64,000 nucleotides of DNA from Rhizobiaceae bacterium. GTDB taxonomy: Bacteria; Pseudomonadota; Alphaproteobacteria; Rhizobiales; Rhizobiaceae. The stretch's first letter is position 1. Each line of letters begins with the position of its first letter. The notes beneath the pieces were generated by a model, which was given only the letters and a program-made list of their open reading frames with translations, was not told the origin of the DNA and did not search any database. The position numbers and the translations under genes were made by a program. Positions 38,385-54,264 of this stretch are shown in pieces. The DNA is taken from NCBI GenBank assembly GCA_029212415.1, contig JARGOF010000001.1, forward strand, positions 1 to 64,000, read 5' to 3'.

Positions 38385-39256
38385 ATGGCCCTCCCCAGGG
38401 TTGTTTCCTGCAGGGTTGAAAACGCGTTGGCAACAAGGCCGGTCAGGACCCGCAGCCGATACCAGCCTGGTGCGTCCATTGCGTCCCGTCCGTCAAATTC
38501 TTCCAGACAGGTTTTGGCGATCATTTGCATTTTTTCGGGCGATGGCGCATGGCCAATGATGGCCTCTTCAAAGCCTGTCCAGCGTTTTGCAACGGCTTCG
38601 ACCGCACCGACCGCGACCGTTGCCGCAGATATTTTTCCGCCGGCACCCAGAGCAATCGACACACTGAGATTGGCAACGGGATAGTCGCCCGCCTTGCGCA
38701 GGGTCAACCGGGCATGCGTGCTTGTACGCTGCGTGCGGGGGATGATCAGGCGTGTTACCAGATCGGTGTGGGCGCGGGTGGCGCGCGCCTCAAGGAAGGC
38801 CGCCATGGTCTGGGTTCTGCTGCCATCAAGGCCTTCGATTTCCAGTCTGGCATCCAGGGCGAGAAGCGCCGGCACCAGATCAGCCGCCGCAAATTCCGCT
38901 GTGCAAATGTTGCCGCCAATGGTTGCCATGCGTCGAATGGCCGGATTGGCCGAATGGCCAGCCGCCTGTGCCAAGGCTGCCAGATCATTGTATCCGTTTA
39001 GAGCATTGGCGATTTGTTCATGGGTCGCCAGAGCGCCGATCACTGCCTCTTGCTGGTCAATGTTTATGGTGCGCAGCGCTTCGATGCGTGACAGGTCGAT
39101 CAGGGTCCGATCAGCTGTTTCGCAGCGCAGCGGGGCACGCATAACCCAGGTTGCGCCGGCCAGAGGAATGGCACTGTCTGCCAATTCACGCAGAGCACGC
39201 AGTGCCTCGTTCAGATCATTTGCCAGGAAAAGTTTGGGGTAGGGCGTAATGTCCAC
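38381..39256 (-). CDS. Molybdenum hydroxylase medium (FAD-binding) subunit
   Basis: About 291 residues. FAD-binding motifs IPLAGATWVMR and MATIGGNICTAEFAA (AGGT and TIGGN-type) are present, followed by the CutM/CoxM C-terminal domain. I prefer GTG 39256 (VDITPYPKLFL) because GGCAGG precedes it and the upstream 23 residues look non-native; the frame runs to a TTG at 39325. It is the first gene of the operon, 182 bp from the convergently oriented LacI gene on the same strand. Electron flow is Mo site, 2Fe-2S, FAD, then NAD or a quinone. Confidence 0.9.
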   Translation of the reverse strand: MDITPYPKLFLANDLNEALRALRELADSAIPLAGATWVMRAPLRCETADRTLIDLSRIEALRTINIDQQEAVIGALATHEQIANALNGYNDLAALAQAAGHSANPAIRRMATIGGNICTAEFAAADLVPALLALDARLEIEGLDGSRTQTMAAFLEARATRAHTDLVTRLIIPRTQRTSTHARLTLRKAGDYPVANLSVSIALGAGGKISAATVAVGAVEAVAKRWTGFEEAIIGHAPSPEKMQMIAKTCLEEFDGRDAMDAPGWYRLRVLTGLVANAFSTLQETTLGRAM

Positions 39257-39438
39257 TGCTGCCTGCCGGTTTGATGTGCGTATCCTGCACCGAAGCCGGC
39301 AAAAGGCGCCAGCCCGGACAGACAAGGGGTGAATGGTCGCAGCCTAACATCCGCGCCGAACCATGAAAAATTCAATTTCCGCAGGGCAGCTATCTGAATT
39401 GTTGATAATGCCCCTTTTCAGGCGCGCTTCATCCAGCG

Positions 39439-40446
39439 TTAGCGGGATGGGATATTTTCGTGAAACAACACCTGCAACCGTGGCAGATATTCCGGTTCCT
39501 TTGTTCCCCGGACCGCGGCGGCGAGCAGCTTGATGATTTCGCGCGCCTCGACCCGAGAATTCTGATCGATCACGGCATCCACTGTTCTGTCCAACAGAAG
39601 ACCTCTGGTGGCGTCGGTCAGGTCATGGGCGATGAAGACAATGTCATGCTGCGCATTGGCCTCCTTCAGGGCCTGCGCAATGCCCTGTGTGCCGGACCCG
39701 ATATTGTAAATCGCCGACGGTCGATCTGTCTTGAGAATGGCGTGCATCTCCTCATAGGCGCGGTCCCGGTCCTCTTCGACTTCAATCAGCGCCGATATGC
39801 GCAGATTGTTGAAGTCGCGCCCCGTCACCGCGCGAAACCCCATTTCCCGTTCTTCGTGCCCGCGATAGGAGGGCGAACCGATGAACACCACGATGTTGTG
39901 CTGGTTGTCGGGATGCAGGAAGCGCCCGGTCAAGAGGCCTGCAAGCCTTCCGGCGGCCCGGTTGTCTATCCCGATATAGCCGACCTTTGTCACCGAGCGT
40001 ATGTCCGAGACCAGCGTGGCGACACGCACGCCGGAGGTGGCGAGCCGGTTGATGGCCTCGCGTACAGCCGGATGGTCGGGTGCGACCACACCGACCGCAT
40101 CGGTTTTTCCAACCATCTCGTGCAGCCGGGCGGCTACCCGATAGGGATCAAAGCCGTCAATGACGTGCAGATTCGGAAGAACGTTGCCATAGCTGGTGGC
40201 TTCTTCAAGCAGGTCCTTGCGCAGATTGGCAATGAAGCTGTTGCTGCCACCCGGCAGTATGAAATCGATGTGGACATCGGCAGCAGGTTGAATTTCCGCC
40301 GGTCCGAAATAGCCCATGCGCCGCGCTGCCGCGAGCACGATCTCACGGGTGCGTTGTTTGACCCCGCCGCGATCATTAAGGGCCCTATCCACGGTTGCAA
40401 CCGAGAAACCGACTTCCTGTGCAATCTGGCTGACTGTTGTTTTCAA
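39439..40446 (-). CDS. LacI-family regulator with sugar-binding-protein-like sensor domain
   Basis: 335 residues from TTG 40446, supported by GGAG six bases upstream; the frame extends to 40491. Residues 1-55 form the LacI helix-turn-helix and hinge (TTVSQIAQEVGFSVATVDRA LNDRG). The rest is the type 1 periplasmic-binding-fold effector domain (VHIDFILPGGSNSFIANL, LVSDIRSVTKVGYIGIDNR, GSPSYRGHEEREMGF). It is divergent from the ABC importer operon starting at 40666 and is the natural candidate for its control. An imperfect palindrome at 40576-40609 lies in the shared promoter gap. Confidence 0.92.
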   Translation of the reverse strand: MKTTVSQIAQEVGFSVATVDRALNDRGGVKQRTREIVLAAARRMGYFGPAEIQPAADVHIDFILPGGSNSFIANLRKDLLEEATSYGNVLPNLHVIDGFDPYRVAARLHEMVGKTDAVGVVAPDHPAVREAINRLATSGVRVATLVSDIRSVTKVGYIGIDNRAAGRLAGLLTGRFLHPDNQHNIVVFIGSPSYRGHEEREMGFRAVTGRDFNNLRISALIEVEEDRDRAYEEMHAILKTDRPSAIYNIGSGTQGIAQALKEANAQHDIVFIAHDLTDATRGLLLDRTVDAVIDQNSRVEAREIIKLLAAAVRGTKEPEYLPRLQVLFHENIPSR

Positions 40447-40575
40447 TGCCTGCTCCGAGTCTTTGCGATGTCTGCACAAACCGCGCAACAATCATAATCC
40501 ATCATTTCCAGAATTCGTTCTATTTACAAGTCAATTCAAGGTTCAAGACTGTGCATATGAATGATAATGATGTTA

Positions 40576-40609
40576 AATGATTGGTTATGACGCTTGTGCT
40601 GCAATCATT
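40576..40609. promoter_or_regulatory. Candidate LacI operator (inverted repeat)
   Basis: AATGATTG (40576-40583) and CAATCATT (40602-40609) are perfect 8-bp inverted arms 18 bp apart in the gap between the LacI gene and the ABC operon. A related CAATCATA occurs at about 40489. The wide centre makes this a weaker candidate than a classical LacI palindrome. Confidence 0.35.
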
Positions 40610-40665
40610 ATACATCAATATTTCCTCGCAATGGTGGTGCCAAATCACCAATTTGGGAGGATATT

Positions 40666-42267
40666 ATGGTTTTGAAATCTGCATTTTCGCGCAGGAAATT
40701 CCTGTCTACCACAACGGCTGCTGGCGTTCTGGCCATCGGTACACCGCTTTATCTGCGTCCTGACAGGGCCAGAGCTGCCGACGGTCTTGCCGAGGGCATG
40801 GTTGGCGGTCCGACCGGCTTTGACGGCGCTGAGCGCTATCAGTACGGTCCGGACACCCCGGAAGGTCGTGCCGTGGAAGGTGCACGCTCCTTGAAGGCTT
40901 CGGGAAAAGCGCCCGAACGTATTGTCCTGGGCCTTTCCGACGGCTCGATTGGACAGATTACCCAGCCATTCCCTGCTGGAGCGCCCTCGATCAAGGATCT
41001 GTGGGAGCAGGAAACCGGCATCAAGCTTGATATTATTGGCGTTCCAAGCGGCCAGGAGTTCACCAAGGTCATGCAGGATATCAGCACCAGCGGCGGGGCA
41101 TTTGATGTCTATGCGGTTGAGTGGAACCGTCTTGGTGATCTGGCAGAGACCGGCGGTATCGTCAATCTGGATGAATATGTCGCCACGCATCGGCCCGAAT
41201 GGGATGATGTGGATCGCGGCTATGTCGGCGGCGCCAAAGGCGTTTCATTGCTCAACAATTATCGTGGTTCGACCTATGGGGTGTCGCTGGATGGGGACTT
41301 CCAGACCTGGAACCATCGTACCGACCTGTTCTCTGATCCAAAGGAACAGAAGGCCTTTGCCGACAAGCATGGATATGCCCTGGCGCCACCGAAGACCTGG
41401 AAAGAACACGACGAGATCGCAGCGTTTTTCCATCGCCCGGATGATGGCCTGTTCGGCAGCACCGACCTGCGCAACCAGGGTTGGGGGTACACCAACTGGT
41501 ATCAGCGCTACGTTTCCATGGCATCGCCAAACCAGTTTCTGTTTGCCGATGACGGTACGTCCTTGATCAACTCCGACCAGGGTGTTGCGGCCACAGAGGA
41601 ATACGTCAAATCGCTGGCACATCACTCACCGGATGCAATTTCCTGGGGCTGGCCGGAACAGTATGGCAATTTCGCCAGTGGCGGCGCTGCGATGACCTGT
41701 GCTTTCTCCAATCTGCCGAAATTCCTCGACAATGCAGCCAATGAAGGCTCCAAGGTTACCGGCAAGATCGGGTCCCACATTCCACCAGGGCGCGTTCACG
41801 ACGATGGAATGGTCAGTCGTTCAGTGCTCTGGCTGAATCTCAGTGCCAGTGTCTCCTCGCAATCAGCCCATCCGGAAACGGCCTATCTGTTGCTTCAGTG
41901 GTTGGGTTCATCGCGCATCTATTCCTGGATGACGGCCAATCCGGGTGGCTATTTCGATCCGTTCCAACTGTCCAATTTTGCGGATCCGCTGGTGCGTGAA
42001 ACCTACCATGATTATCACATGGATGTGGTGCGCGAGACTGTGCGTCGCACGGTTCCGACGATCAATTATCCAGGCGCAACTGCTTTCCACAATGCACTGG
42101 ATGAAAATCTGGTGGGTGCCCTGACCGGTTCGATGACATCTGAACAGGCGATGCAAAACACCGAACGCAGCTGGAAGCGCATTGCCCGCCGTGTTGGTGA
42201 GGAGAAATTGATCGAGGCCATCACGGCAAACAAGGCGGCCTGGCCGGATCTTGTAGACCCTGTCTGA
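40666..42267 (+). CDS. ABC importer substrate-binding protein (CUT1 sugar type, Tat-like signal)
   Basis: 533 residues. The start SRRKFLSTTTAAGVLAIG is a twin-arginine-like signal with cleavage near ARAADG (about residue 37). The mature part is a family 1 extracellular solute-binding protein (IKDLWEQETGIKLDIIGVPS, YGVSLDGDFQTWNHRTDL, GRVHDDGMVSRSVLWLNLS). ATG 40666 follows GGGAGGATATT. It opens a run of twelve co-directional genes with the rest of the transporter directly downstream, after a strong stem-loop. The transported solute is probably a sugar, polyol or similar compound; the sequence does not say which. Confidence 0.92.
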   Translation: MVLKSAFSRRKFLSTTTAAGVLAIGTPLYLRPDRARAADGLAEGMVGGPTGFDGAERYQYGPDTPEGRAVEGARSLKASGKAPERIVLGLSDGSIGQITQPFPAGAPSIKDLWEQETGIKLDIIGVPSGQEFTKVMQDISTSGGAFDVYAVEWNRLGDLAETGGIVNLDEYVATHRPEWDDVDRGYVGGAKGVSLLNNYRGSTYGVSLDGDFQTWNHRTDLFSDPKEQKAFADKHGYALAPPKTWKEHDEIAAFFHRPDDGLFGSTDLRNQGWGYTNWYQRYVSMASPNQFLFADDGTSLINSDQGVAATEEYVKSLAHHSPDAISWGWPEQYGNFASGGAAMTCAFSNLPKFLDNAANEGSKVTGKIGSHIPPGRVHDDGMVSRSVLWLNLSASVSSQSAHPETAYLLLQWLGSSRIYSWMTANPGGYFDPFQLSNFADPLVRETYHDYHMDVVRETVRRTVPTINYPGATAFHNALDENLVGALTGSMTSEQAMQNTERSWKRIARRVGEEKLIEAITANKAAWPDLVDPV

Positions 42268-42292
42268 TAGGACTCCCGAACTCCCGGTAAGC

Positions 42293-42319
42293 CCGGGGGC
42301 CAGCGAGTCTGGCCCCCGG
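42293..42319 (+). other. Intercistronic stem-loop after the binding-protein gene
   Basis: CCGGGGGCCA and TGGCCCCCGG form a perfect 10-bp GC-rich stem around GCGAGTC. It lies between the binding-protein stop and the first permease. There is no U-run, so it probably stabilises the upstream mRNA end or reduces readthrough, as expected where binding protein is needed in excess over permease. Confidence 0.75.
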
Positions 42320-42345
42320 AGGTTGTCAATTTGCAGGTGTAGTAC

Positions 42346-43206
42346 ATGCGTCGATCTCTCCCCTTTGAATTTTTGCGCTATGCAATGATCTTGCTGATTA
42401 TCGCGATATCACTGGTTCCGACGCTGTGGATGTTGTCGATGGCTTTCAAGCCAATCGCCGAATGGTCGGCGTCCGGTGCTGCTTTGACCTGGTGGCCAGA
42501 GAACCCGACGCTGGACAATTTCCGTTTTATTTTTGGTCAATCATCCTCCGAACTCATCGTATCTCTTGAGCGGACCGCTGCGCGTCCCATTGTGGCATCC
42601 TTGCTCGCGGCGATCGTTGGTACATTGATCGCCATGACTGCGGGCACGGCTGCAGCCTATGGCCTGTCGCGGTTTGGCAAAGGCAACAATCTGCCTCTGG
42701 CCCTCATTCAATTGCGCCTGTTTCCACCCATGGCCGTGATGATACCGCTGATGATCATGTGGTCGTTTCTGGGTCTGATAGACAATTGGTTTGGTCTGGC
42801 GGTTGTTTACGGAATTGTCACGCTGCCCTTTGCCTTCTGGCTGATGAAGACATTTTTTGACGACATGCCACGCGAGATTGAAGATGCGGCGCTGGTCGAA
42901 GGCTGCACGCGGCTGCGGGTATTTGCCGTGATCACCCTGCCGATGATGCGCCCGGCGCTGGCATCCTCTGCGCTTTTCGTCTTCATCATGAACTGGTCGG
43001 ATTATCTCATCGCACTGCTGCTGACGACGCGGGACTGGGTGACCATTCCCGTTTACATGACGTCACTGTCCTCCTCCATGACAGGGCAGCTCTATGGTGC
43101 GAAGGCTGCACTGGGACTGATTGCGGCGATACCGCCGGTCATATTGGGTATTGCCATCCAGAAACATCTGGTGCGCGGTCTGACATTTGGAGCCTTGAAG
43201 GAATGA
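42346..43206 (+). CDS. ABC permease, MalG-like (CUT1 type)
   Basis: 286 residues with six membrane helices. The inner-membrane coupling loop reads [20 protein letters not shown], the EAA motif of MalG-type permeases. It forms the channel with the next permease. Its start at 42346 is an ATG about 79 bp after the binding protein. The ATGA overlap with the following gene shows translational coupling. MalG-type before MalF-type is a less common order. Confidence 0.92.
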
Positions 43207-44150
43207 ACGGGGTGTCTGTGAAAGAGGCGGATATTGCGGTGCTTCCGCAGGATAATGCCGGCAGTGAAGAAAAGCGCCTTGGTTTCTGGCTGACGTTGCC
43301 GGCACAATGTCTCGTGCTGTTCATCGCCGTTTTCCCCATCCTGATGCAATTGTACATCTCGATGACGGACTGGTCACCGCTGGATGGTATTCCCTGGTAC
43401 AGGGCGTACGAGTTGTGGATCGGCTTCATCAACTATACGGATCTGGCCTCGGACAGCCGCTTCTGGGCCGCCATGTGGCGTACCTTTCTGGTGATGATCG
43501 TCTGCGTGCCGATCCAGTTTCTTCTGGGGTTGGGGCTTGCCGTGCTTTTCGTCGACGAGTTCCCGGGCAAGCGCTGGTTCTATTCGACGCTGTTGATACC
43601 AATGATGGTGGTGCCTGCCGTCGCCGGATACATGTTTTTCCTGCTTTTCCAGTCGGGCGGGCCGGTCAATGATCTTCTCTCGCTGTTTTCCGCATCTCCG
43701 GTCAAGATTGCCTGGCTGTCGGATCCCAGTCTTGCCTTGGTGGCCGTCATGGCGGCTGACATCTGGCAATGGACGCCATTGATGTTCCTCATCCTGCTGG
43801 CGGGCATGATTTCCGTTCCCCAGGACCAGCAAATGGCTGCCGTTTTGCTTGGCGCATCATGGGGACGTCGCTTTTTCACCATTGTGCTGCCCCGGATGAA
43901 GACCATCATCATCATCGCACTGGCGATCCGCACAATCGAAATCTTCAAGATATTCGATACGCTCTACATCATGACCGGTGGCGGGCCGGGTGTCGCCACG
44001 GAAACCATCTCCGTCTATATCTACAAGGTCACCCAGCAGGATCTGATCTGGGGTTATGTGGCAGCGATTGCGCTGGCCATCCTGATTGTGCTGTCTGTCA
44101 TATCGGCGATTGCCATCAGCAGAATGTCAAAAGGGGCGAATGCCAGATGA
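43203..44150 (+). CDS. ABC permease, MalF-like (CUT1 type)
   Basis: 315 residues; ATG overlaps the preceding stop (ATGA). A short cytosolic start is followed by six membrane helices, with the coupling loop [20 protein letters not shown] near residue 210. Pairs with the MalG-like protein. The next gene's ATG again overlaps its stop, so the four transporter genes are tightly coupled. Confidence 0.92.
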
Positions 44151-45241
44151 CGCAAATTGCCCTTTCCAATCTCGGCAAGAAGTTTGGTTCCTTCACGGCG
44201 CTGGCGCAGATGAACCTGACCATTGGTGATGGCGAGTTCGTGGCACTTCTCGGGCCGTCAGGCTGCGGGAAATCCACAACGATGAACATGATTGCCGGTA
44301 TGGTGGACCCCACCGAAGGCGATATTCGCTTTGATGACCGCAGCATTCTGGATGTTCCGATGAGCCGCCGGGGTGTGGGTTTCGTTTTTCAGAATTATGC
44401 GATTTTCACCCATATGTCTGTTCGCGAAAACCTGGCCTACGGTTTGCGGGCGCAGGGCGTCAGTGCGTCCGAGCGCAACCGCCGGGTCAATGCCATGGCC
44501 GACCTGTTGCAATTGACCCCGATGCTGGACAGACGGGCCGCAGGCCTGTCGGTCAATATTTTGCAGCGCCTGGCGATCGGGCGCTCAGCCGTGGTCGAGC
44601 CGGCCATATTTTTGCTGGATGAACCGCTGTCGAATGTTGATGCAGCGTTTCGCTCTGTCATGCGCAGTGAACTCAAGGCTCTGCAAAGGCAATTCTCACA
44701 GACCCTGGTCTATGTCACCCACGACCAGCTGGAAGCCATGACCATGGCGGATCGCATTGCGGTGATGGATCACGGCAAGCTGCTGCAGGTTGGCACGCCA
44801 TTGGAAATTTACAACAACCCGCAGGACGTCTTTGTCGCGCGCTTCATCGGCTCTCCGGGCATGAATATTCTTGAAGGCACCATTGCTTCATCGGATGAAG
44901 GCAAACTGGTTGATCTGGCATCGGCCGGCCGGTCGGCACCACTTGCTCTTTCGGACCGCGCTGCTTCTCAAGGGTTGCCGGAAAAAGTTCTTTTCGGGTT
45001 TCGTCCGGAACAGGTCAATCCCGATCCCAATGGCACCATGGCCCTGCCGGTGAATTTCGTCGAACGTATCGGTGCGCGCACGATCCTGCATCTGGGAGGC
45101 GACGGCTTGGAGGCCAAGGCTGTTCTGGATAATCAGATCGCGATGCCGAGCATTGGTGATATTTTGCGGTTTTCCATCGACCCGAAAATGGTACGGCTGT
45201 TCGATCCCGTTTCAGGAATTGCCATTGGAGGAGATATCTGA
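44147..45241 (+). CDS. ABC ATP-binding protein with degenerate signature (UgpC/GlpS-like)
   Basis: 364 residues. Walker A GPSGCGKST (36-44), Q-loop FQNYAIF (Gln82), Walker B IFLLDEPLSNVD with catalytic Glu159, and H-loop YVTHDQLEAM are normal. The signature that should read LSGGQ is instead LSVNI (134-138). The C-terminal beta-rich regulatory domain (TOBE-like) follows. The partner ATPase just downstream has a normal signature but Asp in place of its catalytic Glu, so they look like an asymmetric heterodimer. The same division is seen in glycerol-type importers of rhizobia (GlpS/GlpT). ATG overlaps the permease stop; its own stop overlaps the partner's ATG. Confidence 0.92.
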   Translation: MTQIALSNLGKKFGSFTALAQMNLTIGDGEFVALLGPSGCGKSTTMNMIAGMVDPTEGDIRFDDRSILDVPMSRRGVGFVFQNYAIFTHMSVRENLAYGLRAQGVSASERNRRVNAMADLLQLTPMLDRRAAGLSVNILQRLAIGRSAVVEPAIFLLDEPLSNVDAAFRSVMRSELKALQRQFSQTLVYVTHDQLEAMTMADRIAVMDHGKLLQVGTPLEIYNNPQDVFVARFIGSPGMNILEGTIASSDEGKLVDLASAGRSAPLALSDRAASQGLPEKVLFGFRPEQVNPDPNGTMALPVNFVERIGARTILHLGGDGLEAKAVLDNQIAMPSIGDILRFSIDPKMVRLFDPVSGIAIGGDI

Positions 45242-46260
45242 TGGCATCCATTCGCCTTGAAAACATTTGCAAGCACTATGGCGATGTGGTGGCTCTGGAC
45301 GATGTGAGCATCGAGGTCGAGGACAATGCATTCTTCTGCCTGTTCGGCCCACCCCTGAGCGGAAAATCGACGATCCTGAAGATCATTCTGGGTCTTGAAA
45401 CACCCGACAGCGGCTCTGTCTTCATTGATGATCGCCCGATGAACGGTGTAAGCCCGGCACAGCGCAATGTGGCGATGGTCTTTCAGAATCTGGCGCTGTT
45501 TCCCCATATGACGGCCTTGCAGAATGTACGCTTTCCGCTGGTCGAGCGCAAAATAGCAGAAGATGTGATTGCTGCGCGTGTCGACGAAGTGACCAAAAAG
45601 CTGCACATGCAGCACATCCTCCACAAGCCGCCATCACAACTTTCAGGCGGTGAGCGTCAGCGCGTTGCCATTGCGCGGGCACTGGTGCGCGATCCGGTGG
45701 CATATCTGATGGATGATCCCATATCAGCCCTGGATGCACGGTTGCGGGAGGAAACCCGGGTGGAGTTGCGACGCATTCAGCGCGAGATGAACCAGACCGT
45801 CATTTATGTGACCCATGACCAGGAGGAGGCCATGTCCGTATCGGATCAAATGGCCATTTTCGAACATGGTCGCGTACGGCAGGTCGGCGCCCCGCATGAT
45901 CTTTATGATGCACCGGCAAGCACCTATGTCGCCGAAATGCTTGGAGCGCCTGCCATCAATCTGATGGCAGCAGGCGGCACCGCACTGAACGCCGGCAGAC
46001 CGGTTCCGCAACAGGCCGTACAGCTGGGCGTGCGGCCGGAACATTTGCGGGTTTTGAAGGATGGCGGCAATACGCAGGTCAGTGCGATCGAGCCAATGGG
46101 CGCCACGACAATTCTGACGCTGAAGGCCGGCGCGGAAACAATGAAGGCCGCCTTGCACGGGCAACCGGAATTCCAGGTGGGTGAATCCGTCAGCCTGTCG
46201 GTCGACCCGGCGCAGATACATTTTTTCGACAAGAACGGCGACACGCTGGTTGCCGTATAG
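45241..46260 (+). CDS. ABC ATP-binding protein with canonical signature but Asp at the catalytic Glu position
   Basis: 339 residues. Walker A is GPPLSGKST (37-45), the Q-loop is FQNLALF, the signature LSGGERQRVAIARAL (134-148) is canonical, and Walker B reads YLMDDPISALD with Asp159 where a catalytic Glu is usual. H-loop YVTHDQEEAM is intact, and a TOBE-like C-terminal domain follows. In the sandwich dimer, the partner's Walker A/B with this protein's signature make one intact ATP site, while this protein's Walker A/B with the partner's LSVNI make a weak one. The ATG shares one base with the previous stop (TGATG). Confidence 0.92.
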   Translation: MASIRLENICKHYGDVVALDDVSIEVEDNAFFCLFGPPLSGKSTILKIILGLETPDSGSVFIDDRPMNGVSPAQRNVAMVFQNLALFPHMTALQNVRFPLVERKIAEDVIAARVDEVTKKLHMQHILHKPPSQLSGGERQRVAIARALVRDPVAYLMDDPISALDARLREETRVELRRIQREMNQTVIYVTHDQEEAMSVSDQMAIFEHGRVRQVGAPHDLYDAPASTYVAEMLGAPAINLMAAGGTALNAGRPVPQQAVQLGVRPEHLRVLKDGGNTQVSAIEPMGATTILTLKAGAETMKAALHGQPEFQVGESVSLSVDPAQIHFFDKNGDTLVAV

Positions 46261-46273
46261 AAGGGAGGGATAC

Positions 46274-47356
46274 ATGACAGATTTCAAGCCGGATCCGGAC
46301 ATTCGCAATCGCGATTCTCGCATCGGCTGCATTGGTGCAGGCATGATCATGGCCGAATGTCACCTGGCCGCCTATGCGCAGGCGGGTTTTCCCGTCGTCG
46401 CAATTGCCTCGCGCACGCCCGAAAGAGCTGCGACTGTGGCCGAACGCTACAATATTCCCAAGGTGCACAATACGCCTGAGGAATTGATCGCCGACCCGTC
46501 GGTCGATATTCTCGACATTGCCTATCCGCCCGATCAGCAGCCTGCATTGATCCGCGCCGCCTTGCAGCAACCGCACATCAAGGCCATTCTTGTGCAAAAG
46601 CCGCTGGCACTGACCTTGGGAGAAGCCATTGCCCTGCGCGATGAAGCCAAGGCTGCCGGCAAGATCATCAGCGTCAATCAGAACATGCGATACGACCAGT
46701 CTATGCGGGTCCTGAAGCAGATTCTGGAGCGCGGTGATCTGGGGCAGGTCGTCTTTGCGCAAATCGACATGCATGCCATTCCGCACTGGCAGGGGTTTCT
46801 GGAAGACTATGACCGGCTCACCCTGGCCAATATGAGCGTGCATCATCTGGATGTGCTGCGTTTTCTGTTTGGTGATCCGGACGAGATCACCACACAGGCG
46901 CGCAAGGATCCGCGCACGACCTTCGATCATCAGGACGGGATCACGGTTTCAACCCTGCGGTTTCCGTCAGGCGTTCTCGCCCTGTCCCTGGAAGATGTCT
47001 GGTCGGGTCCGCGGCAGGACGGCTACAAGGACGATCAGCACATCACGTTCCGGGTGGAGGGTACGGAGGGCGTCGTCAAGGGCTCGATAGGCTGGCCGAC
47101 AGGTTCGGCCTCGACGCTGAGCTATGCATCCACCAAAACCACGGGCGGAGAATGGGTGACGCCGACCTGGGAAAGCATGTGGTTTCCCCATGCCTTCATC
47201 GGCGTCATGGAGCAATTGCAATATGCCGTTGCCACAAATAGCGAACCGGTGCTGACCGTTGCGGACAACGTGAAAACGGTGGCGCTGATCGAAGCCGGAT
47301 ATCGTTCAATTGCCGAGGGGCGCACGGTGCGCCTTTCGGAAATCAACACCAAATAG
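46274..47356 (+). CDS. Gfo/Idh/MocA-family oxidoreductase
   Basis: 360 residues. The NAD(P) Rossmann motif is IGCIGAGMIMAECHLAAYAQ (about residues 17-36); the catalytic Lys is in ILVQKPLALTLGEA (the usual E-K-P is Q-K-P here) and the C-terminal alpha/beta domain has MSVHHLDVLRFLFGDPDE, where His residues take part in sugar binding. It oxidises a hydroxyl of a sugar or inositol-like substrate. ATG 46274 follows AGGGAGGG; the frame's earlier start would overlap the ATPase. Followed directly by a sugar-isomerase-like gene. Confidence 0.9.
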   Translation: MTDFKPDPDIRNRDSRIGCIGAGMIMAECHLAAYAQAGFPVVAIASRTPERAATVAERYNIPKVHNTPEELIADPSVDILDIAYPPDQQPALIRAALQQPHIKAILVQKPLALTLGEAIALRDEAKAAGKIISVNQNMRYDQSMRVLKQILERGDLGQVVFAQIDMHAIPHWQGFLEDYDRLTLANMSVHHLDVLRFLFGDPDEITTQARKDPRTTFDHQDGITVSTLRFPSGVLALSLEDVWSGPRQDGYKDDQHITFRVEGTEGVVKGSIGWPTGSASTLSYASTKTTGGEWVTPTWESMWFPHAFIGVMEQLQYAVATNSEPVLTVADNVKTVALIEAGYRSIAEGRTVRLSEINTK

Positions 47357-47378
47357 ACACCAAACGGAGGAAAAGATC

Positions 47379-48293
47379 ATGATGCAAGCGGGAATTTTCA
47401 CGGGGTATTTCCCCTATGGGCTTGAAGAAACGGCCAAGAAAATCAGGAGCCACGGCTTCAACACGGCGCAGCTGGATCTGCATTTCAAGGATATCGACCT
47501 GAGCTATGGCAATCTGAATGCTGCCAATTGCAAAAAGGTGCGTGACACGTTCCGTGCCAACGACTTGCCGATTTGTGCCGTATCGGCCTATACCAACATC
47601 ATCCATCCCGACCTGGACCAGCGCAAAGCCAATGTCGACCGGCTGAAGGAAATCCTGCGCAATGCACGGGCATTGGGTTCGCGTTACGTGATCTCCGAAA
47701 CGGGCACCTACAATGAGGAAAGCGAGTGGATGTCGCACCCCAAGAACAAATCCGAAGAAGGATTTGAGGCGTGCCGCAAGATCATCGCCGAACTGTCGCA
47801 GGAAGCCTATGATCATGGCTCGATGTTCCTGCTGGAAACCTATGTGAACAATGTCGTGGGATCGGTTGAGGAAACCGTGAAAATGTTTGCTCAGGTCGAT
47901 CATCCGGGACTGGGTTTGCTGATGGACCCGACCAACTACTTCGAAGATCATAATATCGACCAGATGGACCAGGTGCTGAATCAGGTCTTCGATACATTGT
48001 CGGACAAGATCAAGATCGCCCATGCGAAGGATGTCGCACGCGCCGATGACGACAAATCGGAAAAACACGCTGATATCGGTGATGATGATGCGCTGGCGTC
48101 TCACACTTTCCGCGGGGTCGGCGAGATTGTGCTGAATGCTCCGGGTACCGGGGTGTTGAACTATGATCTATACCTGCAGCGTCTGGCAGAAAAACATCCG
48201 AACATCGAGATGATCATCGAGCATCTGGATGAGGCTGATGTGCCGCGTTCCAAAGCCTTTATCGACGAGAAATTCGTCGCCAACGGCGTATAA
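47379..48293 (+). CDS. TIM-barrel sugar phosphate isomerase/epimerase-like protein (AP endonuclease family 2 fold)
   Basis: 304 residues. The fold is suggested by alternating strands and helices: AGIFTGYFPYGLEETAKKIR, FNTAQLDLHF, LGSRYVISETGTYNEESEW, MFLLETYVNN, GLLMDPTNYFE, and a final IIEHLDEADVPRSK. Glu, Asp and His residues in the last strands are typical metal ligands of xylose-isomerase-like barrels. It probably isomerises or epimerises the product of the preceding dehydrogenase. ATG 47379 follows GGAGG. Confidence 0.87.
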   Translation: MMQAGIFTGYFPYGLEETAKKIRSHGFNTAQLDLHFKDIDLSYGNLNAANCKKVRDTFRANDLPICAVSAYTNIIHPDLDQRKANVDRLKEILRNARALGSRYVISETGTYNEESEWMSHPKNKSEEGFEACRKIIAELSQEAYDHGSMFLLETYVNNVVGSVEETVKMFAQVDHPGLGLLMDPTNYFEDHNIDQMDQVLNQVFDTLSDKIKIAHAKDVARADDDKSEKHADIGDDDALASHTFRGVGEIVLNAPGTGVLNYDLYLQRLAEKHPNIEMIIEHLDEADVPRSKAFIDEKFVANGV

Positions 48294-48298
48294 TCAAC

Positions 48299-48326
48299 GC
48301 GGCGGCGGGAATTGTTCCGCCGCCGC
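48299..48326 (+). other. Intercistronic GC-rich stem-loop
   Basis: GCGGCGGC-GGGAA pairs with TTCCGCCGCCGC around a short loop (12 pairs, one bulged G). It lies between the isomerase stop and the DUF4432 gene, without a U-run; likely an mRNA-stability or processing point rather than a terminator. Confidence 0.6.
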
Positions 48327-48371
48327 TCTCCACCTGGACCGTGTCCAGCGCATTTTTGACGAGGCCAGCAC

Positions 48372-49583
48372 ATGGTAGATATCTATGGCACAACGCATTC
48401 CCGGCGCGATCTCGCAGCCAGGTCCGGTGCGTTGAGTCAGTTCGCCGGTGTGCGGTTGATGACATTGGACAATGGCGTCGAGCGCAATGTGCGGATGCTG
48501 GAATTTCGCACGGGCAGCGGATTGCGCTTTACCGTGCTGGTCGACCGGGCGATGGATATTGCCGAGCTGGAATATAATGGCAAGGCCATTGGCTGGCATT
48601 CGCCGACCGGTTTTCGAAATCCCGGACTTCACGAAGTCGAAGGCGAGAAAGGGATTGGCTGGACCCGCAGTTTTTCCGGTTTTCTGGTGACCTGTGGACT
48701 GGACCATACATTGGGTCCCGAAGAGGTGCCGGCAGACAATTACAATTATCCCGGCCGTCCGACCGCTCGACATACCCTGCACGGACGTGTCAGCACGATA
48801 CCTGCGCGTCTGACCGGTTACGGTGAACAATGGCGGGGCGATCAATGCATTCTGTGGGCAGAGGGTATCGTGCAGCAATCAACCGTTTTCGGAGAGGATC
48901 TGCATCTGCTTCGACGCATTGAAGCCGATGTGGGCGGGCGCGAGATCCGGCTCAGCGACCGGGTTATCAATCATGGTTTCCTGCGTACGCCGCACATGTT
49001 CTTCTATCATGTCAATCTGGGCTATCCCCTGCTCGACGAGGGCGCCCGCTATCTGGCACCGATCAGCGATGTCGTCTGGGCATCCCATGCGGGGCCCGAC
49101 TACCGTTCCCAGGGCATCGGCTATGCAAAGGCTGCAGCACCGGTTGAAGGTTTTACCGAGCAGGTCTGGCAGCATGAAATGCGCGGCGATGAAAACGGCG
49201 AGGTCCCCGTGGCGCTGATCAATGACCGGCTCAACCTCGGCCTTGAGGTTGTGACAAACAAGAACCAATTGCCCTGCGCCTTTCAGTGGCAGAACTTTCA
49301 GGCCGGCAATTACACGATGGGCATAGAACCTTCCAGCCATCATGTTCTTGGAGACCTGGCAGCGCGTGAACGCGGAGAAATGATCTGGCTCGAGCATGAT
49401 GAAGCGCGGGCCTATGACGCGCGTTTCACTGTTCTGGACGGCGCAGACGAAACAGCAGCCTGCGAGGCGCGCATAGCGGCGATCGCCAAGCAGCCGAAAG
49501 ATGATTTTCCGACACCATCGGGACAATTCCCATCACTGGCATCCGGGCGACATGACCGAACGCCGACAGCAACCAGACGATAG
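48372..49583 (+). CDS. DUF4432 aldose-epimerase-like protein
   Basis: 403 residues, mostly beta-strand. Landmarks are TVLVDRAMDIAELEYNGKAIG, SGFLVTCGLDHTLGPEEV, LHGRVSTIPARLTGYGEQW, and HVNLGYPLLDEGARYL, all as in the DUF4432/galactose-mutarotase-like sugar-binding fold. Such proteins are commonly encoded with sugar importers and dehydrogenases and may open, epimerise or remodel sugar rings. It probably works on the substrate of this operon. Likely catalytic residues (His, Glu) are present but I cannot define them. Confidence 0.85.
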   Translation: MVDIYGTTHSRRDLAARSGALSQFAGVRLMTLDNGVERNVRMLEFRTGSGLRFTVLVDRAMDIAELEYNGKAIGWHSPTGFRNPGLHEVEGEKGIGWTRSFSGFLVTCGLDHTLGPEEVPADNYNYPGRPTARHTLHGRVSTIPARLTGYGEQWRGDQCILWAEGIVQQSTVFGEDLHLLRRIEADVGGREIRLSDRVINHGFLRTPHMFFYHVNLGYPLLDEGARYLAPISDVVWASHAGPDYRSQGIGYAKAAAPVEGFTEQVWQHEMRGDENGEVPVALINDRLNLGLEVVTNKNQLPCAFQWQNFQAGNYTMGIEPSSHHVLGDLAARERGEMIWLEHDEARAYDARFTVLDGADETAACEARIAAIAKQPKDDFPTPSGQFPSLASGRHDRTPTATRR

Positions 49584-49601
49584 CATTGAGGAGACTTTGC
49601 G

Positions 49602-50711
49602 TTGACGATGTCTGATATCCAAAACCACACACGCGACTACAGTCTGGTCGGCGAGAGCACGCGCCGGGCTGTCGAGACGGGGTTGGCCAGTGCGCAATGG
49701 TATCATTCAGAGGTGCCGCGCAAGGTGATGAAGGAACTGATGCAGCGGCGTGACGGACCGGCGATCCGTGACACGATCATCTGGCTGGGGCTGCTGGTGG
49801 CCAGTGGTGCCGGCGGGGTCTATTTCTGGGGCAGCTGGACCTGTGTTCCCTTCTTCTTTGTCTATGGCGTTCTGTATGGTTCGGCCTGCGACAGCCGCTG
49901 GCATGAATGCGGGCACGGGACCGCATTTCGCACACGCTGGATGAATGATGTCGTCTATCAGATCGCCAGCTTCATGGTGTTTCGCAACCCGGTGTCCTGG
50001 CGCTGGAGCCATGCGCGCCACCACACTGATACGGTGATTGTCGGACGCGACCCGGAAATCGCCTTCATGCGTCCGCCAAATCTGTTCGTAGGCATCCTGC
50101 ACTATATCGGCCTGCTGGACGTCGTCGCATCCTTCAAGGTCATGGCACGCAATGCATTTGGCATCCTGACGCCTTCGGAAAAAAGCTACATACCGGAATC
50201 GGAATGGCCGAAGGCCATTTTTGCCGCGCGCATCCATATGGCTATTTACCTGGCGGCGGCCATTGCTTCCTTGCTGATGTGGTCGATCCTGCCACTCATG
50301 TTGATCGGACTTCCGCGCTTCTACGGTTGCTGGCACATGTTCCTGACGGGCCTGCTGCAACATGGCGGGCTTGCCGAGGACGTTATTGATCATCGACTGA
50401 ATTCCCGCACCGTCTATATGAACCCGATCAGCCGGTGGATTTACTGGAACATGAATTATCACGTGGAGCACCACATGTTCCCGATGGTTCCCTATCACGC
50501 GCTGCCGCGACTGCATGAATTGATCAAGGACGATCTGCCGGAACCAAACCCTTCCATGTGGCATGCCTATGTGGAGATGGTGAAGGTGCTGTTACGCCAG
50601 CGGCGCGATCCCGAATATTATCTGCGCAGAACCTTGCCCGCGACCGCCAGGCCGTACCGTGAGGAATTCCATGCTGACGATGCGGTGCCTGCCGCCAGCA
50701 GCATTGCATGA
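49602..50711 (+). CDS. Membrane di-iron fatty acid desaturase-family protein (hydroxylase/desaturase)
   Basis: 369 residues with the three histidine boxes: HECGH (101-105), HARHH (137-141), and HVEHH (287-291), plus an extra LQHGG. Four or more hydrophobic segments place the non-heme di-iron site on the cytosolic face of the membrane. In this fold O2 and two electrons desaturate or hydroxylate an unactivated C-H. Here the electrons can come from the Rieske ferredoxin and reductase encoded next. It is embedded in a sugar-type uptake operon, so the substrate may not be a fatty acid. Start TTG 49602 fits GAGGAG eight bases upstream; ATG 49608 is the alternative. Confidence 0.88.
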   Translation: MTMSDIQNHTRDYSLVGESTRRAVETGLASAQWYHSEVPRKVMKELMQRRDGPAIRDTIIWLGLLVASGAGGVYFWGSWTCVPFFFVYGVLYGSACDSRWHECGHGTAFRTRWMNDVVYQIASFMVFRNPVSWRWSHARHHTDTVIVGRDPEIAFMRPPNLFVGILHYIGLLDVVASFKVMARNAFGILTPSEKSYIPESEWPKAIFAARIHMAIYLAAAIASLLMWSILPLMLIGLPRFYGCWHMFLTGLLQHGGLAEDVIDHRLNSRTVYMNPISRWIYWNMNYHVEHHMFPMVPYHALPRLHELIKDDLPEPNPSMWHAYVEMVKVLLRQRRDPEYYLRRTLPATARPYREEFHADDAVPAASSIA

Positions 50712-50736
50712 ACACCCCTTTCAAGGAGACAAGGCC

Positions 50737-51555
50737 ATGAGCCGCAAGAGACCGACCGTTGCAGATTTGCGCGCGCTGAAGGGCAAGCGACAGTTGACGA
50801 TGCTGCGCGTTTTTACCATTGAAGAGGCCGAGGCTGCCGAAACTGCGGGTATCGACATTGTATCGATTCCGCCGGAACTGCTTTTGAATCCGCGCTACCG
50901 GGAGGTCGCGCCATCGCTTTTCTCGATGACCGGCATGACCCATCTGGAGGCCGGCACCCGCGATGATTATCTCAGATTTGCCGGCGAGATGCTGCAGGCC
51001 GATGGCGATGCACTCTATTGCAGCGGTGGTTTTGGAACCGTGAAGTTTCTGGCGGACGAATTCATTCCAGTTGTGGCTCATGTCGGTCTTGTGCCGTCAC
51101 GCGCGACATGGACCGGTGGCTTCAAGGCTGTCGGAAAAACCGCAGATGCCGCCTTGGCGCTTTACGAGGAATGCAAGGCCTTCGAAGAGGCCGGCGCCTT
51201 TGCCGTCGAGATTGAAGTGGTGCCTGTCGAGGTGGCCAGCGAGATCAGCAAGAGGCTGGATATGTTGTTGTGGTCGATGGGCTCAGGCGCGGGCTGTGAT
51301 GTGCAATATCTTTTTGCCGAGGATATTCTGGGCGAAAATCGCGGGCACATGCCCCGCCATTCCAAGGTCTACCGCAATTTCGCCGCCGAGTATGACCGGC
51401 TGCAGACCGAGCGTATAGCAGCTTTTCGTGAATATATTGAGGATGTGAACAATGGTTCCTATCCGCAGGATGGCCATATCGTGCATATGGCTCCAGACGA
51501 GTTCTCGCGCTTCTGCAACCAGCTAGACAAAGATTGCCAGCTAGACAAAGATTGA
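50737..51555 (+). CDS. PanB-like (ketopantoate hydroxymethyltransferase) homologue lacking catalytic residues
   Basis: 272 residues. It matches the PanB fold over its length: TVADLRALKGKRQLTMLRV, HVGLVPSRATWTGGFKAVGK with the His at 115, EAGAFAVEIEVVPVEVASEI with Glu160, and GSGAGCDVQYLFAEDILGEN. But compared with E. coli PanB the Mg-binding aspartates (VGDS and LADLPF) and the Lys/Glu of VKIEGG are absent; the equivalents read IVSIPPELL and LYCSGG. It therefore is unlikely to be the pantothenate enzyme and probably does related C-C bond chemistry. ATG 50737 follows AAGGAG. An 18-bp tandem duplication gives the C-terminus QLDKDCQLDKD. Confidence 0.85.
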   Translation: MSRKRPTVADLRALKGKRQLTMLRVFTIEEAEAAETAGIDIVSIPPELLLNPRYREVAPSLFSMTGMTHLEAGTRDDYLRFAGEMLQADGDALYCSGGFGTVKFLADEFIPVVAHVGLVPSRATWTGGFKAVGKTADAALALYEECKAFEEAGAFAVEIEVVPVEVASEISKRLDMLLWSMGSGAGCDVQYLFAEDILGENRGHMPRHSKVYRNFAAEYDRLQTERIAAFREYIEDVNNGSYPQDGHIVHMAPDEFSRFCNQLDKDCQLDKD

Positions 51556-51556
51556 A
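51521..51556 (+). repeat. Tandem 18-bp duplication at the 3' end of the PanB-like gene
   Basis: CAGCTAGACAAAGATTG(C/A) occurs twice head to tail (51521-51538 and 51539-51556), ending at the stop codon. It repeats Q-L-D-K-D and probably arose by slippage. No functional effect is expected. Confidence 0.85.
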
Positions 51557-51566
51557 GGAGAGACCC

Positions 51567-51878
51567 ATGCCGTGGATCAGCGCCTGTGAGGCGGATGAAA
51601 TCGATGCTGAAGATGTCATGCGGTTTGACCATGACGGGCACACCTATGCGCTCTATCGCAGCCCGGATGACAAATATTACGCAACGGACGGGTTGTGCAC
51701 CCATGAGCAGGTGCATCTATGTGATGGCCTGGTGATGGACAACATCATCGAATGCCCCAAACACAATGGTCGTTTTGACTATACGACGGGTGCGCCCAAG
51801 GGCGCTCCCGTCTGCGTTGCTCTCAAGACCTATAATGTGAAGGTTGAAGCCGGCATGGTGATGATCGAGATCGCTTGA
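51567..51878 (+). CDS. Rieske-type ferredoxin
   Basis: 103 residues. The Rieske [2Fe-2S] ligands are Cys44-x-His46 (CTHEQVHL) and Cys63-x-x-His66 (CPKHNGRF). The short length, lack of a membrane anchor and position beside a reductase match the soluble ferredoxins of multicomponent oxygenases. ATG 51567 follows AAGGAGAG. It probably carries electrons from the next gene's reductase to the di-iron protein encoded two genes upstream. Confidence 0.93.
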   Translation: MPWISACEADEIDAEDVMRFDHDGHTYALYRSPDDKYYATDGLCTHEQVHLCDGLVMDNIIECPKHNGRFDYTTGAPKGAPVCVALKTYNVKVEAGMVMIEIA

Positions 51879-53122
51879 TGGCAAGACCGCATGGCATGGT
51901 TATTATCGGCGGCGGCATTGCCGCCTCGCGTGCAGCCAATGCGCTGCGCGACGGGGGCTGGAATGGGCCCATCACTCTGGTCAGCGATGAAATGCATGTG
52001 CCCTATGACCGTCCGCCGCTGTCCAAATCTTTTGTGACCGATGCGCCGGCACGCGCGCCCTATCTGACGGACATCGCCGCTCTTGCCGCCATTGATGTCA
52101 ATTTCATCAGCGCCAATGCTGCGACACGGATTGACCCGAAGGCATCGACAGTTTGGCTGAGTGACGGGCAGTCTCTGCCCTATGAAAAGTTGCTGATTGC
52201 AACCGGCGCGCAGCCGCGGCGTTTGACTTTGCCCGGATCGGAAAGTGCCCGTGTCCATTATCTGCGCACGATCGAGGATTCTCTTGCCATTTCAGGGCAG
52301 TTGAAAGCCGGTGCGCATATGATTGTCATAGGCGGCGGGTTTATTGGCCTGGAAATCGCCTGCAGCGCCAGAAATCTAGGTGCGCGCGTCACCGTGATCG
52401 AGGGGTTGCCGCGCATCCTGTCGCGCGGCGTACCGCATGAGATTGCACAGGTCGTTGCCAGCCGTCACCGCCAGGAGGGGGTGGCGCTTCATTGCAACGC
52501 AAAGATCACCCATCTTGTTGAGAGTGATGACGCGATCAACGTGACACTGGCCGATGGTCAGACGATCACAGGTGATCTTGTCGTCGCGGGCATTGGGGCG
52601 CAGCCAGCGACGGATCTGGCGTCAAACGCAGGTCTTGCGATTGAAAACGGCATTCGTGTGGACAGCTATCTACAGACCAGTGATCCCGATATTTTTGCAG
52701 CCGGAGACTGTGTGTCCTTTCCGCTTGCCGCCTATGAAAATACCAGGGTGCGGCTTGAATCCTGGCGCAATGCGCAGGACCAGGGCGTGGTCGCGGCGGC
52801 CAATATGTTGGGCAAGCAACAGGCCTATGAGGCGATCCCGTGGTTCTGGTCGGATCAATATGATTTGTCACTCCAGATCGTGGGGCTGCGCGGTGCACAG
52901 GACCGTTCCATCCGACGTGATCTTGGCAACGATGCCTTCATCCTGTTTCATCTGGATCCAGCGGGGCGCTTGACGGGCGCCAGCGGCATCGGTGTCGGCA
53001 ATGCCGTTGCGCGCGACATCCGCCTCACGGAAATGCTGATCGCCAAAGGCGCCAAGCCGCCGGATGAGGTGTTGGCTGATGGCAAGGCATCACTCAAGGC
53101 TTTGTTGCGCCAACCGGGATAA
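51878..53122 (+). CDS. FAD-dependent ferredoxin reductase
   Basis: 414 residues of the BphA4/rhodocoxin reductase type. FAD site GMVIIGGGIAASRAANALR, NAD site MIVIGGGFIGLEIACSARNL, and the second FAD motif TSDPDIFAAGDCVSFP are all present, as is the C-terminal dimer-like domain (WFWSDQYDLSLQIVGL). It transfers electrons from NAD(P)H to the Rieske ferredoxin. The ATG shares a base with the ferredoxin stop (TGATG), so the two are translated together. It is the last gene of the operon; the next gene is convergent. Confidence 0.93.
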   Translation: MARPHGMVIIGGGIAASRAANALRDGGWNGPITLVSDEMHVPYDRPPLSKSFVTDAPARAPYLTDIAALAAIDVNFISANAATRIDPKASTVWLSDGQSLPYEKLLIATGAQPRRLTLPGSESARVHYLRTIEDSLAISGQLKAGAHMIVIGGGFIGLEIACSARNLGARVTVIEGLPRILSRGVPHEIAQVVASRHRQEGVALHCNAKITHLVESDDAINVTLADGQTITGDLVVAGIGAQPATDLASNAGLAIENGIRVDSYLQTSDPDIFAAGDCVSFPLAAYENTRVRLESWRNAQDQGVVAAANMLGKQQAYEAIPWFWSDQYDLSLQIVGLRGAQDRSIRRDLGNDAFILFHLDPAGRLTGASGIGVGNAVARDIRLTEMLIAKGAKPPDEVLADGKASLKALLRQPG

Positions 53123-53161: not shown

Positions 53162-54142
53162 TCACGGCGCTGCAGCGACAGTCTGTGCGGGGGCGATTCC
53201 GCCAGCGAGAATATCGCGGACCATCGTGTAGGAGACGCGGGCATTGGAGATGGCCCGATAGAAATTGATCAGCTGGTCGGAAGGGTCGGACAGCTTCTGA
53301 AAACCCGTGATGAATACGAGAAGCGTACCCACATCAGTTTGGCCATGGATGACCAGATATCCACCGACCATCAAGACGATAATGGGGCCCAGGGCATTGA
53401 GGAAGTTTCCGAGGAATGTCAGGAAGTATTTGTGGCGATAGATACGCATACGGGTTGTAAACAGTTTTTCGATCAATTTGTGCGACCTGCTGAAATGGCT
53501 TGTCGGGTCCTGTTCATCGGCATGAACATGATGGATGATTTCGTGATTCAGCTTGCGCACCAGTCCGGTTCTTCTGCGGGCAAGCAAATTGATCGTACGT
53601 TGTACCTTAGGAACCAATATCATTTGCGGCAGATAGACGATCAGGGCGAGACCGGCGATCAGCGGCTGTACCCAGATCAGATAGGTGACAACCCAGATCA
53701 TCGTGCCGGCCTGAAGCAGCGGCAGCGCAAGGCTGTCGCTTGCAAACCCTCCGATATCTTCGGCTTCTGCGGCCACGATTGATGCTGCTGTGGCATCATC
53801 AAACCCATCGGGCAAAGCGTCTTCCCTTGCCCAGACGTGTTTTTGCTCTTCCACAAGGATGCGATTGCGAAGATCGCGCGTCACCTCCTCCAGCACCAGT
53901 CCCTTTGTCAGGTTCAGCACATATTTGAGACCGCCTTGTATCAAGATAACCAGGAGGTAGGCCGCACCAAGCATGTAAAGAAGCTTCAGATCCGGTTTGC
54001 CGATTGCCTGATCAACAACACGGCGCTGGATTTCCAGTGGAATGATTGAGAGCGGTACGATCGCAGCCGTCAGAAAACAAATCCGTATCTGGTTCTTGCG
54101 GCTGGTCATCCAGATATAGGCGTATATCGATTCTGAGATCAT
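53162..54142 (-). CDS. Stand-alone ABC transporter transmembrane domain (six-helix, no ATPase domain)
   Basis: About 326 residues with five to six membrane helices and a type 1 exporter layout (IRICFLTAAIVPLSIIPLEI, VVTYLIWVQPLIAGLAL, DVGTLLVFITGFQKLSDP). Normally a 250-residue ATPase follows; here the protein ends at GGIAPAQTVAAAP and no Walker A gene is next to it. A Pfam family of such six-helix proteins (ABC_membrane_3) exists, so it may be a legitimate type rather than a truncation. Long cytosolic segments hold charged residues. Start chosen at ATG 54142 after AGGACACCC; ATG 54157 and 54178 are alternatives. Function unknown. Confidence 0.75.
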   Translation of the reverse strand: MISESIYAYIWMTSRKNQIRICFLTAAIVPLSIIPLEIQRRVVDQAIGKPDLKLLYMLGAAYLLVILIQGGLKYVLNLTKGLVLEEVTRDLRNRILVEEQKHVWAREDALPDGFDDATAASIVAAEAEDIGGFASDSLALPLLQAGTMIWVVTYLIWVQPLIAGLALIVYLPQMILVPKVQRTINLLARRRTGLVRKLNHEIIHHVHADEQDPTSHFSRSHKLIEKLFTTRMRIYRHKYFLTFLGNFLNALGPIIVLMVGGYLVIHGQTDVGTLLVFITGFQKLSDPSDQLINFYRAISNARVSYTMVRDILAGGIAPAQTVAAAP

Positions 54143-54264
54143 GGGTGTCCTGCGCATTGCCTTGCAATGACATTTCACCCTTTGGGAGAATTAAGCAATC
54201 GCCTAAAACATGGCTTTGCGGACAAATAGCGCCGCCATCATCGATCTTTGGTATTATGCTTTGG

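Follow-up and report, generated by a model that had tools for sequence, protein, structure and literature searches.

A MocD-type oxygenase operon with an inserted PanB-like gene in a Rhizobiaceae bacterium: a candidate system for demethylation of an imported methyl ether and capture of formaldehyde

The DNA analysed here, hereafter the window, is a stretch of 64,000 nucleotides (contig JARGOF010000001.1, positions 1 to 64,000, assembly GCA_029212415.1) from the 5.84 Mb genome, 99% complete, of a Rhizobiaceae bacterium. According to the open reading frame (ORF) list and Pfam matches, it carries 12 plus-strand genes at 40666-53122 with a lacI gene divergent from them. In order, these genes encode a solute-binding protein (SBP), two permeases, two ATPases, a Gfo/Idh dehydrogenase, an AP_endonuc_2 triosephosphate isomerase (TIM) barrel protein, a DUF4432 protein, an FA_desaturase protein, a PanB-like protein, a Rieske protein and a reductase. 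We propose that this operon serves the import of a methyl ether, its demethylation by the desaturase-type oxygenase, and capture of the released formaldehyde by the PanB-like protein, and we give this explanation as a whole a probability of about 0.55. The PanB-like gene is the most unusual part of the operon. An initial annotation of this DNA had given it little weight and named it only in a proposed check; the gene is indeed present between the desaturase and Rieske genes.

Judged by sequence, the desaturase, Rieske protein and reductase are a trio of a known kind, MocDEF, placed within a new operon type. The same three protein families act in rhizopine catabolism in Sinorhizobium meliloti L5-30 and Rhizobium leguminosarum, where MocDEF reportedly removes the O-methyl group of rhizopine, as Bahar et al. 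are said to have found in 1998. The view of the initial annotation that no characterised pathway has this gene set thus needs correction, since the trio is of the MocDEF kind and the Gfo/Idh and TIM-barrel proteins are also rhizopine-pathway parts, though of other subfamilies here. MocDEF is described as part of rhizopine catabolism (PMC10107442). All three histidine boxes noted in the initial annotation are present in the desaturase (Table 1), and their histidines are the same in all 107 MocD-type sequences compared. The window MocD is 64% identical to the MocD of locus L124, which has a rhizopine-type layout, and 70% identical to the pRL11 MocD; in Rhizobium etli CIAT 652 a close relative is annotated as mocD, mocEa and mocFa. 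When the R. pisi genome was searched for a second MocD, a single strong match was obtained. The structure model of MocD (predicted local distance difference test, pLDDT, 85) matches solved structures weakly, the best being two subunits of the algal FtsHi motor complex (E values 4e-5 and 5e-5), followed by the alkane monooxygenase AlkB (8f6t, E 0.017). The Rieske protein is the sole match in the genome above the MocE-family cut-off, and the reductase is 49-57% identical to the genes in the MocF place of relatives, reaching 71% in the closest one. The order mocD-mocE-mocF is interrupted in the window by the PanB-like gene, which lies 3' of mocF in L113, L114, L120, L121 and L124.

The initial annotation had proposed a gene-neighbourhood search, and the arrangement does recur, more than by chance, in Mesorhizobium, Aquibium, Tabrizicola, Cypionkella and others. 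Co-occurrence was scored within 6 kb on the same strand in 80 loci, the best 80 of 282 encoding hits; these samples are uneven, rich in Mesorhizobium and partly selected for MocD. MocE lies near MocD in 70 loci, the PanB-like gene in 69, the TIM barrel in 49, DUF4432 in 47 and MocF in 25. In the MocD tree, the window falls in a clade (support 0.98) with 68 other loci, leaving 38 outside. At least one of the Gfo, TIM and DUF4432 genes is found in 54 of the 68 loci within the clade compared to 1 of the 38 outside it. Outside the clade, MocD is accompanied by inositol genes (L122, L123) or stands in the rhizopine-type layout of L124, an R. indicum plasmid locus with iolE, Gfo, SBP, a pyridoxal phosphate (PLP)-dependent aminotransferase family protein that we read as MocR, MocD-E-F, PanB-like and purU. 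By its gene content, then, the window operon is a conserved type different from the rhizopine operon. Many Mesorhizobium loci have an additional, second importer, read as CUT2 from its sequences alone. Even distant four-gene sets have stayed together, as in L171 (MocD 36% and PanB-like 46% identical) and L172 (33% and 42%). In L119 (Sinorhizobium sp. C101, 8887-18083), the Gfo-TIM-DUF4432 genes occur without MocD, joined to genes for a short-chain dehydrogenase/reductase (SDR), a CoA-transferase and an enoyl-CoA hydratase, and the module is therefore separable from MocD.

The PanB-like protein has the fold of PanB without its ligand residues. The structure model (pLDDT 84) has PanB as all of its 28 best matches in the PDB, and the PanB TIM-barrel fold is present (3vav, template modelling score 0.74-0.76, E 3.7e-19). 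The sole Pfam match at E <= 0.001 is PF02548 (Pantoate_transf), with no Fae or Gfa family among the matches, and the protein scores below both PanB cut-offs (equivalog/subfamily), with 99.9 vs 207.55 bits and 122.8 vs 272 bits. We surveyed 88 distinct sequences with at least 40% identity to one of three references; it is noted that the 88 are mutually non-independent. D45, S46, D84, K112 and E114, which we take to be the residues with which true PanB holds Mg2+ and the keto acid, are replaced in all of them, while H136, P141, E181 and D209 are kept in all of them; H136 and E181 correspond to H115 and E160 of the window protein. Position 84 holds G in 87 sequences and C in one, position 112 holds Y in all 88, and at position 114 all 88 have S, A, N or C. 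Positions 45 and 46 are gaps in 86 and 88 sequences, respectively, the rest having Y or W at 45; this region aligns poorly and is shifted in a second alignment. Alignment to 1m3u agrees on the loss at 84, 112 and 114. A further set of 30 sequences, which includes one of the 88 (L192), retains H136 and E181 throughout; 25 of its members have another residue in place of K112, and five keep the lysine. Without its keto-acid and metal site, but with the rest of the pocket intact, a PanB could bind tetrahydrofolate (THF) and run the half-reaction between formaldehyde and THF.

The PanB-like gene tracks the oxygenase rather than one sugar module. In 398 genomes of the phylum, near-full-length PanB-like matches at >=40% identity were ordered by E value, short matches such as a 53% identical fragment of 120 residues in genome G059 being excluded; among the matches listed, 17 of 23 places have a MocD-type gene within 4 kb. 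The remaining six comprise one at a contig end (G004), two adjoining an FA_hydroxylase-type membrane oxygenase (L194, L196), two in a Gfo-TIM-MocE operon where no oxygenase is visible (L193, L195), and one (L192) from which a ring-hydroxylating Rieske oxygenase lies 3.2 kb off on the opposite strand and a MocE gene 7 kb off. Among 385 genomes of the class, 28 places were found at E <= 1e-30: nine near MocD, five (at four sites) near PhyH, one (L201) adjoining a ring-hydroxylating Rieske oxygenase, two close to a contig end, and two (L212, L214) with K112 retained, where a PhyH-like match is given by tblastn alone. Paralogues of the PanB-like gene thus occur near FA_hydroxylase, PhyH, TauD and ring-hydroxylating Rieske oxygenases. 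Proximity to PhyH was seen in five cases, one of them also with MocD, against about 0.7 expected by chance, a rough estimate from 12 genomes and 13 sites that leaves out G499, G004 and G471. The source genome itself carries a second ligand-less PanB-like gene (L174 7748-8575, G000:C25), 5 kb from one of the only two genes for PhyH that it has. The surrounding stretch contains CUT2-like, PfkB, RbsD and PhyH genes, all on one strand. The trait shared by the settings with a visible partner is an oxygenase that might release formaldehyde.

It should be mentioned that the K112-keeping genes of L212 (7801-8658) and L214 (7779-8639) lie in apparent TRAP-transporter operons, with the PhyH-like gene 3-4 kb away. 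In a small genome, two MocD-type genes, MocF, MocE, PanB-like and an FA_hydroxylase-type oxygenase are found in one cluster (L216 7360-12857).

The genes purU and folD accompany some of these loci. purU lies near MocD in 9 of the 80 loci, and follows the PanB-like gene in L121 and L124. In L121 (M. huakuii), the order is MocD-E-F, PanB-like, purU and an intact folD, and the products of the last two match the PurU and FolD models. L207 has PanB-like, iolG and purU without MocD, and L122 has purU with the PanB-like gene absent. Together, PanB-like, FolD and PurU would form a line from formaldehyde to formate through THF. A folD-like stretch 3' of purU in L124 (14539-14964) has a frame that is not open over the full gene length.

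The imported substrate was approached from the importer and the genomic context. The search for solved relatives gave none for the TIM barrel and weak or general ones for the importer and the Gfo protein; the SBP weakly matches 5iai, a chain of a sugar ABC transporter (E 2.5e-4). The CUT1 type of the importer suggests a glycoside or polyol. The moc ancestry, the inositol genes near MocD in L122 and L123, iolD and induction by root exudate favour an O-methyl cyclitol. In the source genome iolD scores above its cut-off, and an iolE-like gene near it falls short (170.6 vs 290 bits). In R. mesoamericanum, mocDEF is up 1.5-2.1-fold in root exudate, of which pinitol, an O-methyl inositol, is the most concentrated component (PMC5789663). 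The second PhyH gene of the source genome starts about 70 bp after iolD (G000:C81 103668-106188).

Based on these data, we propose the following mechanism. Under control of LacI, the operon would import a cyclitol or sugar bearing an O-methyl group, which may enter as a glycoside, and the Gfo/Idh, TIM-barrel and DUF4432 proteins would oxidise and rearrange the sugar part. MocD, receiving electrons from NAD(P)H via the reductase and the Rieske protein, would hydroxylate the methoxy carbon, and the resulting hemiacetal would break into an alcohol and formaldehyde. The comparison of genomes makes it probable that the MocD system is the demethylase of a methyl ether. The PanB-like protein may then capture the formaldehyde as methylene-THF, most likely by condensing formaldehyde with THF. 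That it handles the released one-carbon (C1) unit is a reading the genomes favour somewhat; that it catalyses the condensation itself is a tentative suggestion. FolD and PurU could convert methylene-THF to formate, and the freed cyclitol could enter the iol pathway, of which the genome has at least iolD. An O2-dependent step in the breakdown of an imported polar compound, with demethylation among the options, had been suggested in the initial annotation and is supported here.

Several observations weigh against this proposal. A search of PMC10107442 gave no word starting with 'demethyl', and the authors of PMC5789663 take the induction of mocDEF as rhizopine use. Deletion of the true panB together with ltaE in E. 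coli left formaldehyde-dependent growth unchanged (PMC7073904), which speaks against true PanB as the condensing enzyme. Neither purU nor folD was seen adjoining the window operon. By our own tblastn probes and reading of the ORF lists, from which the absence of an oxygenase was judged, 9 of the 28 class places have none nearby. The PanB-like gene is missing from 11 of the 80 MocD loci, two of which are cut by contig ends and five of which are of a Mesorhizobium type with MocD-E-F (L075, L084, L085, L097, L105); by clade, it is absent in 8 of the 68 loci that share the window's clade and in 19 of the 38 others, some again cut by contig ends. The PanB-like gene is therefore not obligatory, and other formaldehyde routes must serve in these loci.

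Other explanations were considered. MocD could hydroxylate or desaturate a sugar without demethylation, with the PanB-like protein as a retro-aldolase transferring to THF a hydroxymethyl group taken from an intermediate further along the pathway. PanB chemistry is reversible in principle, the fold is present, and an adjoining purU would fit any source of C1-THF. However, the Mg2+ and keto-acid residues of PanB are gone from all 88 sequences, and the gene goes with an oxygenase, not with one sugar module; we regard this explanation as unlikely, although it deserves some weight. The loss of these residues with retention of the fold would also suit a protein without catalytic activity that buffers, senses or channels formaldehyde or THF by binding it. 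The invariance of H136, P141, E181 and D209 argues for a chemical role, and we consider a non-catalytic binder quite unlikely. The name in the records, 3-methyl-2-oxobutanoate hydroxymethyltransferase, would have the protein make ketopantoate for pantothenate as a passenger in the operon. Its scores below the PanB cut-offs, its lost ligand residues and its retention beside MocD all contradict this. A search for panC gave no match in the source genome (the control query matches in 9 of 14 genomes), and both of the only two PF02548 proteins of that genome are without PanB ligand residues, from which it follows that this gene has no part in the usual route to pantothenate; a passenger role is highly improbable.

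A plain operon for catabolism of rhizopine (3-O-methyl-scyllo-inosamine) would account for the MocDEF-type trio, the Gfo/Idh protein and the TIM barrel. The window nevertheless has LacI and a CUT1-type importer where the rhizopine operon has MocR and MocB, an added DUF4432 gene and a PanB-like gene inside the trio. Its Gfo and TIM-barrel proteins belong to other subfamilies, assignment to IolG and IolE having been rejected at 88.7 bits vs a cut-off of 355 and 19.3 bits vs 290, and its MocD stands in a different clade (support 0.98) from that of L124, the rhizopine-type layout used for the comparison. We therefore consider this reading very unlikely. Its FA_desaturase domain might also make the desaturase a lipid enzyme lying in the operon by chance. 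The initial annotation had held that separate transcription of the desaturase group and its co-occurrence in other genomes with lipid genes only would speak against an operon role; no lipid-synthesis gene was seen in eight annotated MocD regions, several of which carry sugar-importer or inositol genes. Moreover, the DesA and DesB models match weakly (21.8 and 32.8 bits vs cut-offs of 500), and MocD travels with MocE and importer genes. A lipid enzyme is scarcely credible here.

The proposed capture of formaldehyde can be compared to known systems. True PanB shares with the window protein the fold and H136, P141, E181 and D209; the window protein differs at D45, S46, D84, K112 and E114, falls below the cut-offs and stands in an oxygenase rather than a pan context. 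Fae (with tetrahydromethanopterin) and Gfa (with glutathione) do the job proposed here, speeding condensation of formaldehyde with a C1 carrier, but the PanB-like protein has no Pfam match to either family at E <= 0.001 and its proposed carrier is THF. In Pseudomonas syringae on woody hosts, MocDEF occurs without mocCABR, as in the window, and lies beside xylA2 (PMC5132102). The one published parallel is in Filomicrobium sp. Y, where a 20.3-kb segment with the genes of methanesulfonate monooxygenase, which yields formaldehyde, also carries gcvT and a panB-annotated gene (PMC4433239). Compared by annotation, this resembles the system proposed for the window in having a formaldehyde-releasing oxygenase and a panB-annotated gene on one segment; the oxygenase is a Rieske hydroxylase acting on a C1 sulfonate, unlike the window MocD.

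The condensation of formaldehyde with THF is called spontaneous in a review (PMC8879981). He and colleagues found that the spontaneous reaction runs too slowly in vivo to sustain growth; they considered PanB as the condensing enzyme and left room for the evolution of a Fae variant that uses THF (PMC7073904). In the open-access literature we found no enzyme for this condensation and no description of a PanB-like gene with moc genes. If the PanB-like protein does condense formaldehyde with THF, it would be an enzyme for a step described as spontaneous, could find use in synthetic methylotrophy and would extend the set of genes in the rhizopine pathway. It is conceivable, though doubtful, that a widespread and unrecognised branch of the PanB fold with a lost keto-acid site is the missing THF-dependent formaldehyde-activating enzyme, paired with oxidative demethylases that have three or more unrelated folds (MocD-type desaturase or FA_hydroxylase, PhyH/TauD dioxygenases, Rieske hydroxylase); in some clusters FolD and PurU would supply an integral line from formaldehyde to formate, rhizopine-type moc clusters included. 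The PanB-like gene makes this formaldehyde-THF question directly testable, and the operon suggests that rhizobia and Rhodobacterales other than the rhizopine users also feed on methylated cyclitols or sugars.

The features of the operon are listed in Table 1. The ORFs of the desaturase, Rieske protein and reductase are open and on the same strand as the importer and sugar genes, contiguous as the initial annotation had claimed, and the LacI regulator it described is present and divergent. From the second ATPase gene onward the intergenic gaps are -4 to 78 bp, and terminator-like sites showed no excess (12 found vs 12.0 expected in shuffles); the short gaps and chance-level terminator-like sites make a single operon likely.

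Table 1. Features of the operon and its regulator in the window
Feature	Position	Strand	Basis
LacI-family regulator, Peripla_BP_4 sensor domain	39439..40491	-	PF00356 + PF13407; lacI at same place in many relatives
Candidate operator in the lacI-SBP intergenic region: two 16-nt direct repeats (CAATCATAATCCATCA / CAATCATTATACATCA) with inverted copies	40489..40617		possible LacI operator
Extracellular solute-binding protein, CUT1-type importer	40666..42267	+	PF01547 E 6.1e-23
ABC sugar permease 1	42346..43206	+	ORF; 76-94% identity to same-place gene in relatives
ABC sugar permease 2	43203..44150	+	ORF; conserved in relatives
ABC ATPase 1	44147..45241	+	ORF; conserved in relatives
ABC ATPase 2	45241..46260	+	ORF; conserved in relatives
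Gfo/Idh/MocA dehydrogenase	46274..47356	+	PF01408, PF02894, NCBIfam; best solved relative 5uhw
AP_endonuc_2 TIM-barrel isomerase/epimerase/lyase	47379..48293	+	PF01261, NCBIfam
DUF4432, aldose-1-epimerase-like	48372..49583	+	PF14486 E 1.3e-93; 3ty1 'hypothetical aldose 1-epimerase' E 2.1e-35
MocD-type membrane di-iron oxygenase (desaturase)	49608..50711	+	PF00487 E 2.3e-39; boxes HECGH, HARHH, HVEHH
PanB-like protein	50737..51555	+	PF02548; between desaturase and Rieske genes
MocE-family Rieske ferredoxin	51567..51878	+	TIGR02377 169.7 bits, cut-off 136.15
MocF-type NAD(P)H:ferredoxin reductase	51875..53122	+	PF07992 + PF14759; 4 bp overlap with Rieske gene

Just past lacI, on the lacI strand, lie molybdenum hydroxylase genes of the CO-dehydrogenase/aldehyde-oxidase type (MoCoBD_1/2, FAD_binding_5, CO_deh_flav_C; 35551-39325, minus strand). 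The end of the operon is faced by a gene for an ABC-transporter-like membrane protein (53162-54178, minus strand), which has no Pfam match at 1e-6 and matches PHROG 2392, 'ABC transporter'.

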